The notes under the pieces are model-generated. The model had not been told where the DNA came from. It saw nothing but the letters and a program-made list of their open reading frames with translations, and did no database searches. A stretch of DNA of 64,000 bases from Thermotoga sp. KOL6 (lineage in GTDB: Bacteria; Thermotogota; Thermotogae; Thermotogales; Thermotogaceae). This document shows, piece after piece, positions 18,540-22,202 of the stretch (within the stretch, counting starts at the first letter, position 1; each line of letters starts with the position of its first letter). The stretch spans positions 310,001 to 374,000 of the forward strand of contig NZ_LNDE01000002.1 of the NCBI RefSeq assembly GCF_002866025.1, written 5' to 3'. A program made the translations under genes and the position numbers.

Positions 18540-19157
18540 GTGAAGAGAGAAACTATTGCAACCTTTTTTGCTTCCCTTATCGTAGTTGCCATTCTACTCT
18601 TTTTCGTTCTTTCAGTTTTCAATCTTCTATTCTTTAGAAAGTTGGAAACAAAAATCTCGAAGTTGGAGGAACAAATACAATCGAAATTCGAAAATTATGA
18701 AGAGCGATTAAAATTGATGGAGTCACTTTTAAAACCGAACTCCATCATTAGTCGCTACATAACTGCCTATGAATATTTCGAAAAAGCTAATGTGGATTTT
18801 GAGAGGATATTTTCTGAGATAGAAGACGATCCGACGACTGGTTATATAAGAGTTTTTGTTATAGGCAACGATCCAGTTTGGATTACTGTCAAAGATGGTG
18901 AGGAAATTCTCTTTTCCCGCGACGTAAAGCCGGGTCTTTCCCCCTATAGGTTCTTCTATTATAAAAAACCAAAAATTTCAACGGAATACGATATAGCGGT
19001 ACCGAGAAACGCGACATTAGTGGTAGGCATTCCGGATAGGGTGTTTCTTCTTGTCTTCGGTGTAGGAACTTCTCATCACCCCACTAAGATAGTGCAAGTG
19101 AAACAAAGCAGAATAAACAACATAGAGAAAGATTTAAGCCTCTATATACCGCGATAG
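18540..19157 (+). CDS. Membrane-anchored coiled-coil protein downstream of a sigma factor
   Basis: A 205-residue protein with one N-terminal membrane helix (about residues 9-33), a coiled coil (about 36-62, KLETKISKLEEQIQSKFENY) and a C-terminal domain rich in beta-type segments (YIRVFVIGNDPVWITVKDGE). The short basic N-terminus suggests that the C-terminal bulk lies outside the cytoplasm, which is not the layout of classical anti-sigma factors. I do not recognise the C-terminal domain. It starts at a GTG seven bases after the sigma gene and has a terminator-like hairpin nine bases after its stop, so it shares the transcript with the sigma factor. Confidence 0.65.
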   Translation: MKRETIATFFASLIVVAILLFFVLSVFNLLFFRKLETKISKLEEQIQSKFENYEERLKLMESLLKPNSIISRYITAYEYFEKANVDFERIFSEIEDDPTTGYIRVFVIGNDPVWITVKDGEEILFSRDVKPGLSPYRFFYYKKPKISTEYDIAVPRNATLVVGIPDRVFLLVFGVGTSHHPTKIVQVKQSRINNIEKDLSLYIPR

Positions 19158-19165
19158 AAAACAAA

Positions 19166-19185
19166 GGAGGGACTTTCGTCCCTCC
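19166..19185 (+). terminator. Intrinsic terminator-like hairpin after the sigma-factor unit
   Basis: GGAGGGAC-TTTC-GTCCCTCC, a perfect 8-bp stem with a four-base loop, nine bases after the stop of the coiled-coil gene. The following sequence (CATACTTCATCTCTTTAC) is pyrimidine-rich but has no long T run. Confidence 0.6.
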
Positions 19186-19338
19186 CATACTTCATCTCTT
19201 TACTTAATCGGGTCTAGGGGGGATCGGGGGGATGAGGGACACGCAATTCAGAATTTAACTGATCGCTGTAACATCCGCTTGAAACAACAAAAAAGAACTC
19301 CTTAAATCTTCTTAAAAAACCTTTGAAGGAGGAAGACG
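19186..19338 (+). promoter_or_regulatory. Intergenic region with four-tract G-quadruplex motif and possible promoter
   Basis: Plus-strand G tracts lie at 19210-19212, 19217-19222, 19226-19231 and 19236-19238, with loops of 4, 3 and 4 bases, fitting the G3+N1-7 quadruplex rule. Downstream, TTGAAA (near 19282) and TAAATC with an 18-base spacer could be a promoter for the gene at 19339. No protein-coding frame is evident, and no known RNA family is recognised. Confidence 0.55.
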
Positions 19339-19935
19339 ATGGAATACGTTTTGCTGAAGGATTTGCGTTTTTTTGATTATCCTGGAGGGACGGTTCTTTT
19401 TAGGGAAACTCTGGACAGAATAAAACTGGAAATGATGAACTACATTTTCAGAGCTTTCAAGAATAGGAAGTTTGTGTTTATTAACCTGTTCAGCGACGAA
19501 GTAAACCCTTTCTCGGCAGAAAGGTTCATAATGGAGTTCATTCCGACTGGTTCCGTTATTCTTGATGAGATTGTTGAATATTTGGGTCTTCCCGTAGAAC
19601 GGGAATTTGATGTGTCTTTTCCTGATTTCACCACATCCCCCTTGGCTGACCCTTGTGAATGCCTCCTCTATGATGAAGGGAAAGGCTTCGAGAGGGTAGA
19701 CCTTTCCCAATACAAAGTGAATCTTTTTGAGAAGGAAATATACGATGAACTGAATTTGGCGGATATCCCGGAAAACTCTCTTGTTCTTTTGAAAGGGATT
19801 CTATGGGATAGTGAGTACAAAAGATTTCAAGATAGGCAGAATTTTCAATTTGTTGGAAAAGTATTGAAAAAGAAGAATTGGCCAAAGTTGGATACCTTTC
19901 TTTTAGAGGAAATTCAAGTGGGTGAGGAACTATGA
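19339..19935 (+). CDS. Unknown protein paired with a YhaN/Rad50-like ATPase
   Basis: A 198-residue soluble protein I do not recognise. It begins at an ATG with AAGGAGGAAG upstream and overlaps the ATPase gene by four bases (ATGA), so the two are almost certainly expressed together. No metallophosphoesterase motifs (D-x-H, GDxxD, GNHD) are present, so it is not the Mre11/YhaO/SbcD-type nuclease that normally accompanies such ATPases. The first half is Phe- and Arg-rich (FFDYPGGTVLFRETLDRI), and the second half is acidic (ADIPENSLVLLKGILWDSEY). No signal peptide or membrane helix is visible. Physical interaction with the ATPase is inference from gene overlap. Confidence 0.7.
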   Translation: MEYVLLKDLRFFDYPGGTVLFRETLDRIKLEMMNYIFRAFKNRKFVFINLFSDEVNPFSAERFIMEFIPTGSVILDEIVEYLGLPVEREFDVSFPDFTTSPLADPCECLLYDEGKGFERVDLSQYKVNLFEKEIYDELNLADIPENSLVLLKGILWDSEYKRFQDRQNFQFVGKVLKKKNWPKLDTFLLEEIQVGEEL

Positions 19936-22202
19936 AGGTAGAGCATGTGCACGTTGAAGGATTCGGAAAATTCGAGAACTTTTCGTTTTCGCTCAAGGAT
20001 GGGTTGAACATTATCTACGGAGGAAATGCAGCGGGAAAAACGACGCTCGCGAATTTCATAAGATATTGCCTGACTGGGGATCTACCCGAGGTAGAGAACT
20101 ACAAACCTTGGTACGCTAACAAGTTTGGTGGGCATTTGGAAACAGACGAAGGAACGATAGCGTTCGGTTATGGGGTGATAGATCCGGAAGTTTTCATTTT
20201 CACCTCTTTTCTTCCAGAGAATGTCGATCAAAGCCTTGATGGTTCGAAGAATATATCTTCTATGGTTGTAGAGAGTTACAAGAATCTTCCGGAAGCTAAG
20301 AAAATGGAAAAGGTTTTAAACGAAAACTTTGCAGGCTTGTTGGAGAAAGAGAAGAGTCTGGAAAGTGAGATTTTACATTTAAAAGAAATTCTGAAAGGTT
20401 GGAGAAAAAGACGGGAGGAAACACTCTCATGGTTCATCAAGAAGAAGGAACTACAAGATGAATTTTCAGAGAAGAAGAAGAAATTAGATGAAGCGAGAAA
20501 CAAATTCAATGAAGAGAAAAGTGAGAAGTTGAAGGCGATCAATTCTGAAATAGAAAGAACAGAAGAGGAGATTTCGCGTGTTAGAAAAGAACTAGAAAAG
20601 ATTGGACAACTTCCGCCTGGTGAGAAACTGAGAGAAGTTCACGATTTCTTTCAAAAGGTGGAGTATCTGAAAAAGAGAATTTCACAGCTTGAGAAAGAAG
20701 TGGAAGAACTTGAGAAGAAATCGCTCGAAACAAAAGGGGAATTGCAATCCATTCTGGAAGACTTTTCTGCAAACAGTCTTGAGGAACTCAAGTTGAAAGT
20801 GGAGAATCTGAGACTCCAAATAAGTGTCTTTGAGAGTGAGCATAAATCAAAAGTGAATGAAATCGTAAAGCGATTGAGAGAACCTCTTGAAAAGGTAGAG
20901 AGTCGGTTGAACAATATAACCGAGGAAATGGAAAAAGTAGGAGACGGAATGAAAAGGATCGATCGATTGTCTTCCGTTGTCAAAATCTTTGTCAGTGCTC
21001 TTCTATCTTTTTCAGCAATTTCGGTTGTCTTTTCATTTTTGATCTCTAATATTCTGTTCGTGTATTTATCAATAGCGAGTGCCATCGGTGCAGCTATTTC
21101 TCTGTGGGGTTATTTCAAGGTGAAGAGTAAACTTTCCGATCTTGAAACCAAATTTGTTTCTCTCTCTTCACAGAAAAGAGAGTTAGTAAAGGAGAAGAAC
21201 CAGATGTTGAATCGTATGAGAGACTCAATAGGTGTTGAGAGTTTATCGGAACTCGAAATCGTTTTGAAGGATCGAGTGGCTTCGAATGTTTTTAAAATGG
21301 CTCCTTTCCTTAAAAAATACGGATCTGATCCTACAAAAGCACTTGAGAATGTGGAAATTCAAATCAGGGAACTCCTTATACTAAAGGATTCCGTGGAATC
21401 TTCTCTATTGGAAAAAAGAAAAAGTTTAGAAGAGTTGAGGGAGTATCTAAAAAATCAAGAGAGTGAACTCAGTGAACGTTTGGATAATTTAGGAGTGAAA
21501 ACATCCAAAGAACTGCTGGAAAATCTAGAAAAATTGGAGCAAAAATTGAAACTCGAGAAACTGGAGGAGAACTTGCAAAAAAACTTGAATAGACTCCTGA
21601 CTCAGAAAAAAGAGATTGAATCGATGAAATCCAATGTTGAAATAGAAGAGTTAGAAAAGGAACTGAAAAGAATAGAAGAGGAGTTGGAAAGTCTAACGAT
21701 TCCCTCTCTTGAAGATCCGTTCGATTTTATAGAGAGCCTTTACAGAAAAGAAGCAGAACTTGAATTGATGGAAAGAGCGATTGCAAATATTCCTTTGTTC
21801 AAAGAGAAGGTGAGAAAGAAATACGAAGATTTTCTAAATAGTTACGCAAATGAGTTGGCAATAGAGTTGGGGAGTGTGTACAAAAAATTCTTCGGTGAGC
21901 CTATCATGTTCAAAGTATCACCTTTTCTTGAGATTTCCGTGAGTGTTCCAAACGAAAAGCCCGCAAAGAAAATTTTGAATACATCTGCCTTGAAGATTTT
22001 GAGCTTTTACGTGAAGAACTTTCTGGCAAGGGTTTTGATGGTGGAAATCCCCCTCGTTATAGACAACACCTTTGTTGACTTGGATGATGAGAAGGTGGAT
22101 CTCCTCCTGGAAGAATTGGAAAATTTGGCTTCGAGTAGGCAGATCATTTTCTTTACAAGCGACAAAAGATTTTTGAAAGAAGAACCCTTGTTGAGACTCT
22201 AA
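19932..22202 (+). CDS. YhaN/Rad50-like coiled-coil ATPase with two central membrane helices
   Basis: A 756-residue ABC-type (SMC/Rad50-like) ATPase. The N-terminal lobe (VEHVHVEGFGKFENFSFSL) carries Walker A YGGNAAGKTTLANF (about residues 31-40). Two long coiled-coil blocks (about 130-340 and 400-650) flank two membrane helices at about residues 346-395 (FVSALLSFSAISVVFSFLIS and FVYLSIASAIGAAISLWGYF). This is the layout of Bacillus YhaN. The C-terminal lobe has a Walker B-like PLVIDNTFVDLDDEK, where the usual second acidic residue is Asn, and a weak signature (LNTSALKILSFYV). Family members act with nucleases on DNA ends, but here the partner gene is not a nuclease. It converges with the CDF gene, sharing stop-codon bases. 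Confidence 0.8.
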   Translation: MKVEHVHVEGFGKFENFSFSLKDGLNIIYGGNAAGKTTLANFIRYCLTGDLPEVENYKPWYANKFGGHLETDEGTIAFGYGVIDPEVFIFTSFLPENVDQSLDGSKNISSMVVESYKNLPEAKKMEKVLNENFAGLLEKEKSLESEILHLKEILKGWRKRREETLSWFIKKKELQDEFSEKKKKLDEARNKFNEEKSEKLKAINSEIERTEEEISRVRKELEKIGQLPPGEKLREVHDFFQKVEYLKKRISQLEKEVEELEKKSLETKGELQSILEDFSANSLEELKLKVENLRLQISVFESEHKSKVNEIVKRLREPLEKVESRLNNITEEMEKVGDGMKRIDRLSSVVKIFVSALLSFSAISVVFSFLISNILFVYLSIASAIGAAISLWGYFKVKSKLSDLETKFVSLSSQKRELVKEKNQMLNRMRDSIGVESLSELEIVLKDRVASNVFKMAPFLKKYGSDPTKALENVEIQIRELLILKDSVESSLLEKRKSLEELREYLKNQESELSERLDNLGVKTSKELLENLEKLEQKLKLEKLEENLQKNLNRLLTQKKEIESMKSNVEIEELEKELKRIEEELESLTIPSLEDPFDFIESLYRKEAELELMERAIANIPLFKEKVRKKYEDFLNSYANELAIELGSVYKKFFGEPIMFKVSPFLEISVSVPNEKPAKKILNTSALKILSFYVKNFLARVLMVEIPLVIDNTFVDLDDEKVDLLLEELENLASSRQIIFFTSDKRFLKEEPLLRL

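Follow-up and report, generated by a model that had tools for sequence, protein, structure and literature searches.

In a stretch of 64,000 nucleotides from the 1.7 Mb genome of Thermotoga sp. KOL6 (the window) we analysed two overlapping genes, which lie on the + strand, as do all of their features given below, and share 4 bp. The first open reading frame (19339..19935) codes for a protein of 198 amino acids, here called the partner. The second (19932..22202) codes for a protein of 756 amino acids, which its domain matches and its model assign to the membrane-anchored, Rad50-like ATPases of the YhaN type. Coordinates, lengths and overlap are as described in an earlier note on this DNA. Upstream of the pair are genes for a sigma factor and for a 205-aa protein; a CDF transporter gene follows it in convergent orientation. 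Neither a nuclease gene nor another effector gene adjoins the pair among these neighbours, and no third gene was seen to recur beside it in the neighbourhoods read. A promoter scan gave no more matches than were obtained with shuffled sequences.

The 205-aa protein (18540-19157) combines a hydrophobic segment at its N-terminus with a charged helix-like region behind it and is without family match; it is kept 5' of the pair in the window's genus and in the genome G096 only. Between this gene and the partner gene the region 19155-19260 is conserved far above both genes of the pair. On its - strand a perfect terminator-like hairpin and a T-run come after an invariant C-rich stretch (TCCCTCATCCCCCCGATCCCCCCT). 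These features make the region a candidate small RNA as judged from its sequence. Each of the 7 genomes of the genus carries it once, as does, in a slightly diverged form, the sister genus g4. The candidate was not found elsewhere in the phylum, and Rfam gave no match at the gathering score.

The ATPase domain was recognized in the profile search by AAA_23 (6e-19) and by AAA_27/YhaN (25.1 bits, cut-off 22), and Rad50 is the best structural match of the ATPase model (Z 21.0). Both the Walker A motif GGNAAGKTT (residues 30-38, 20019..20045) and the D-loop region have remained intact. The hydropathy profile, with maxima at residues 352-370 and 374-392, confirms the two membrane helices that had been noticed halfway along the coiled coil. 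According to the model this two-helix hairpin (residues 352-392, 20985..21107) occupies the mid-coil place of the zinc hook of Rad50; a CxxC zinc hook is absent from the window ATPase. The membrane helices are not special to this ATPase. As the same mid-coil hairpin is found in clostridial YhaN and in YhaN of family f10, including YhaN proteins with an intact, active YhaO, it is a feature of the YhaN family.

Canonical YhaN proteins have two acidic residues in Walker B (DD in 9/9 read) and a histidine in the H-loop (TCH or THH wherever printed in full); three clostridial YhaN proteins show Asp-Asp with His. The window ATPase fails this pattern, reading VIDN and TSD. Its Walker B motif PLVIDNTF carries D711-N712 (22062..22067), that is, Asn in place of the second acid as previously stated, and TSD is found at the H-loop position (residues 742-744, 22155..22163). 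The signature motif LNTSALK (residues 682-688, 21975..21995) is indeed diverged; it is the form of the window's genus, whereas relatives have LS(R/G)(A/S)T. Walker B Asn was present in all 35 ATPases with a readable motif that accompany either a short partner like that of the window (mini partner) or the partner of family f11 (34 from the Thermotogales and one, G100, from f11). An H-loop Asp was found in 34/34 such ATPases scored by script; G077, outside the script scoring, reads TND. In the 34 ATPases scored for both residues, Asn and Asp always occur together and never singly. Other combinations were seen in G010, where DD stands with Arg at the H-loop position, and in G052, where Asp-Asp stands with Asn.

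We searched for relatives of the partner at the level of sequence and of structure. The profile search of this protein, which the earlier note had proposed, gave no family match for the window copy in the libraries searched. A Pfam scan of 24 partner sequences returned isolated weak matches only, searches of PDB sequences with partner profiles gave no match up to E 10, and PADLOC did not match the partner. When mini partners were compared with YhaO by hhalign the probability stayed below 2%, so that no link shows at the profile level. Taken alone, this profile-profile result would have read as "unrelated"; the fold search altered that reading.

An AlphaFold2 model of the partner was built on 24 family members and reached a pLDDT of 92.1 and a pTM of 0.83. 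With this model as query, Mre11 structures ranked first in Foldseek (best 5dny_A, E 8.6e-3, prob 0.96). In VIA-align 167-168 of the 198 residues were aligned with Mre11 at Z 10.3, the best background Z being usually 7-8 according to the tool. The alignment places residues 1-175/188 of the model on residues 1-332/333 of the Mre11 chain and runs through the Mre11 capping region. All of the 50 best listed VIA-align entries have a metallophosphoesterase fold; entries found for the partner are Mre11/SbcD, LpxH, polymerase B subunits, YfcE, and an archaeal phosphodiesterase. In the model (19339..19935) an N-terminal phosphoesterase half-core is followed by a beta-hairpin, a capping half-domain, and a C-terminal helix, the order of the elements being strand, long helix, strand, helix, hairpin and capping elements, C-terminal helix. 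As judged from this order, the partner fits an Mre11 chain that lacks the middle of the catalytic core. The predicted model contains both a metallophosphoesterase-type fold and an Mre11-type capping domain.

The metal-binding residues of this fold are missing. A motif scan showed that GNH and GHxH are absent from every mini partner, and the partner of the window does not contain a single histidine. Strand 1 (residues 2-7, 19342..19359) reads KDLR (two species of the genus have KGLR) where Mre11 and YhaO have the DxH metal motif; the DxH pattern that occurs in a few relatives is not located at strand 1. As far as the sequence can tell, the partner is no nuclease by any known mechanism of the phosphoesterase fold. 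The best conserved motif of the family is TSP (19633..19641; SSP or SNP in relatives), which we propose as the counterpart of the GSP of YhaO and Mre11. The C-terminal helix (residues 183-197, 19885..19929, from DSSP of the model) is proposed as a putative ATPase-binding helix; its motif resembles the C-termini of YhaO weakly, the PSSM placing it at the top rank in 6 of 34 cases and within the top five in most. On the predicted fold the 198-aa protein is a miniaturised, catalytically dead YhaO/Mre11 of about half the original length. Because profile-profile comparison detects no homology to YhaO, the homology that appears to exist is based on the predicted fold, the gene order, and intermediates. 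Of the description as an unknown, non-nuclease protein, the second part stands, catalytic phosphoesterase motifs being absent, whereas the first has to give way to a predicted Mre11/SbcD fold.

Canonical YhaO is encoded directly 5' of YhaN and carries DxH, GNH, and GHxH in 9/9 examples with a readable partner. The mini partner holds the same position, directly 5' of the ATPase gene and usually overlapping it. In family f10 YhaO is intact in G044 and has lost GNH in G052. Family f6 (G009 and G010) contains full-length relatives of YhaO of about 352 aa, which hhalign connects with clostridial YhaO at a probability of 95%; in them DLH is changed to DLL or NLL, GD to GN, and GNH to GKK. These proteins are an apparent intermediate: like the mini partner they stand 5' of a YhaN-type ATPase and have lost the catalytic residues, but they have kept their length, and the ATPase of G010 retains Walker B DD. 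In the ATPase tree G100 and the Thermotogales form a clade with support 100/97, which G010 joins with support 94/67, the placement of this long branch being moderately supported. The series from intact YhaO through dead full-length to dead mini proteins is consistent with this tree. The ancestral YhaO would first have lost its catalytic residues, a state that would still be found in f6, and then about half its chain; the ATPase would meanwhile have exchanged the Walker B Asp for Asn and the H-loop His for Asp.

Two further loci were noted. Outside the order, the f11 genome G100 encodes a 246-aa protein (L090:3031-3768) 5' of an ATPase with Walker B DN; its link to the f2 partners is weak (hhalign 24%), and it may be an early mini partner. 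In Oribacterium (L065:4919-5995) DVN, GN, GEN, and GYLH replace the DxH, GD, GNH, and GHxH of YhaO, and the YhaN of this locus keeps DD and His. Judged by these replacements this clostridial YhaO appears to be losing its metal site as well, so inactivation of YhaO may have occurred more than once.

The pair is intact and syntenic in 7/7 genomes of the window's genus. Across the genus identity to the window is 56-61% for the partner and 51-54% for the ATPase, compared with 74-96% for the neighbouring genes, and dN/dS of the pair is about 0.1-0.3 at informative distances. From these values, the pair evolves fast, yet under purifying selection. Of the 45 genomes that represent the order Thermotogales, 38 (families f1, f2, and f3) contain both partner and ATPase, as a search with the partner profile showed; this bears out conservation beyond one species, and every partner-positive genome also has the ATPase (38/38). 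The full pair is present in none of the four genomes of genus g13, and the other three genomes of the order without a pair are draft assemblies. In one genome the partner gene matches as two separate pieces next to an intact ATPase gene (G078:C1:28562-29004, L176), which is either an assembly frameshift or a decaying partner. Outside the order nothing convincing was found among 390 genomes from 299 genera; G024, G053, and G193 (E 0.003-0.009) were rejected as members, their matches covering fragments only. The pair occupies at least four gene neighbourhoods. In the window's genus the sigma-factor gene is close by; in f3 the pair lies between PhoH-like and pyrH-like genes (neighbour names read from the sequence), and f2 and genus g5 of f1 have it at sites different from these. 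Since the neighbourhoods differ, the pair travels as a unit.

The closest known system is YhaO-YhaN, combining an ATPase of Pfam AAA_27 (COG4717 type) with a metallophosphoesterase; we take it to be the SbcEF of B. subtilis. It shares with the pair the gene order and overlap, the Rad50-like head, and the mid-coil hairpin. The Thermotogales partner differs in having about half the size and no metal motifs, and the ATPase in having Walker B DN instead of DD and TSD instead of TCH or THH. Bacillus SbcEF has been implicated in double-strand break repair, its role being poorly characterised (PMC6452273), and cells did not require it to stay viable under nick-rescue conditions (PMC12748557). SbcD-SbcC and Mre11-Rad50 resemble the pair in the predicted fold of the partner and in the fold of the ATPase head; the pair has neither nuclease motifs nor a zinc hook and carries the membrane hairpin instead. 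A search for a stand-alone sbcD, also suggested earlier, was successful: canonical SbcD and SbcC are encoded separately in the same genome. This SbcC has a CxxC at residue 436, and the SbcD aligns end to end with the solved Mre11 structure 3qg5_C and with 2q8u, titled Thermotoga maritima. In the open literature searched we found no description of a dead, miniaturised Mre11 partner or of the Thermotoga loci.

We consider it rather probable that the pair is a degenerate YhaO-YhaN complex that acts beside the SbcCD of the genome as a nuclease-free, membrane-tethered clamp of the Rad50 type and tethers or organises DNA. When the second Walker B acid of an ABC/SMC ATPase is exchanged for its amide, the usual effect is slower hydrolysis and a more stable closed ATP dimer, and for this reason a long-lived, membrane-anchored clamp is favoured. 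ATP binding would close the two ATPase heads around DNA, while the mini-Mre11 would be a scaffold whose C-terminal helix attaches it to the coiled-coil base. Hydrolysis would be slow or altered, and the clamp would hence be long-lived. With coiled-coil arms ending in the cytoplasmic membrane, the pair could tether or organise DNA there and leave the cutting of DNA ends to the separate SbcCD; that the clamp tethers DNA at the membrane is something that we only infer. The earlier note had taken a phosphoesterase fold in the 198-residue protein as an argument against its own proposal, and just such a fold is predicted. The proposal itself, of a machine with a task other than DNA-end processing, emerges strengthened: a nuclease subunit has seemingly been kept after the loss of its active site, and end processing has a predicted SbcCD of its own.

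The B subunits of the DNA polymerases epsilon, delta, and zeta are non-catalytic scaffolds with a phosphoesterase fold. They are among the structural matches of the partner (Z 6.1-7.7) and likewise have a structural role, but they bind polymerases and not SMC-type ATPases. As a tentative extension, the pair could be an order-wide, nuclease-less complex of the Mre11-Rad50 type, its ATPase rewired through Walker B Asn and H-loop Asp, which would act as a long-lived tether between membrane and chromosome and be a bacterial counterpart of these dead polymerase scaffolds.

We considered alternatives to the clamp. Given the H-loop Asp that accompanies the Walker B Asn, an ATPase site that is rewired and still active has to be taken seriously as a rival: the Asp would replace the lost Walker B acid near the gamma-phosphate, and the complex would be an active DNA-moving or clamp-loading motor without nuclease. 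The strict coupling of both residues in 34/34 ATPases scored, the combination of DD with Arg in G010, and the intact Walker A and D-loop regions are in line with this; the same pattern would arise, however, if a single ancestor had fixed two neutral losses, and in the window's genus the signature motif has diverged too, so that we regard such a motor as possible but doubtful. Somewhat further off, the complex might still serve in the repair of DNA ends, with a mini-Mre11 that recruits a nuclease of separate origin or feeds SbcCD. The implication of B. subtilis SbcEF in double-strand break repair (PMC6452273) would agree with such a role, which the lack of an adjoining nuclease gene in the window and of a recurring third gene in the neighbourhoods read makes unlikely. 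An unrelated partner, a small alpha/beta protein whose Mre11-like model reflects chance or model-driven resemblance, is quite improbable. Profile-level similarity to YhaO is indeed absent and the Foldseek E of 8.6e-3 is modest, but the phosphoesterase fold in 50/50 listed VIA-align entries, the Z of 10.3 above a background of 7-8, the alignment over the capping region, and the yhaO position 5' of yhaN all argue against coincidence. Finally, a role in defence against phages like that of the Lamassu, Gabija, or Septu systems, suggested by matches of the ATPase to LmuB profiles (1.5e-16) and other defence ATPases and by type II Lamassu LmuACB among its structural matches, was rejected as very improbable on distribution and neighbours, since these matches reflect generic SMC/AAA_15 similarity, no nuclease or effector gene adjoins the pair in the way that the LmuA effector nuclease gene stands beside LmuB, and the pair is near-universal in the order with an ATPase tree that broadly follows the genome families.

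With a degenerate YhaO-YhaN clamp as the preferred reading, the partner family, which is without a model in the libraries searched, would gain an identity. It is usually through the nuclease that Mre11-Rad50 complexes are accounted for; in this order-wide lineage, where the subunit without its active site stays under purifying selection and the ATPase site has changed to match, the structural role of Mre11 would be separated from its catalytic role. The pair would thus be a natural system for testing what a Rad50-type clamp does alone, and it may help to find out what purpose the membrane hairpin serves in YhaN-type ATPases.
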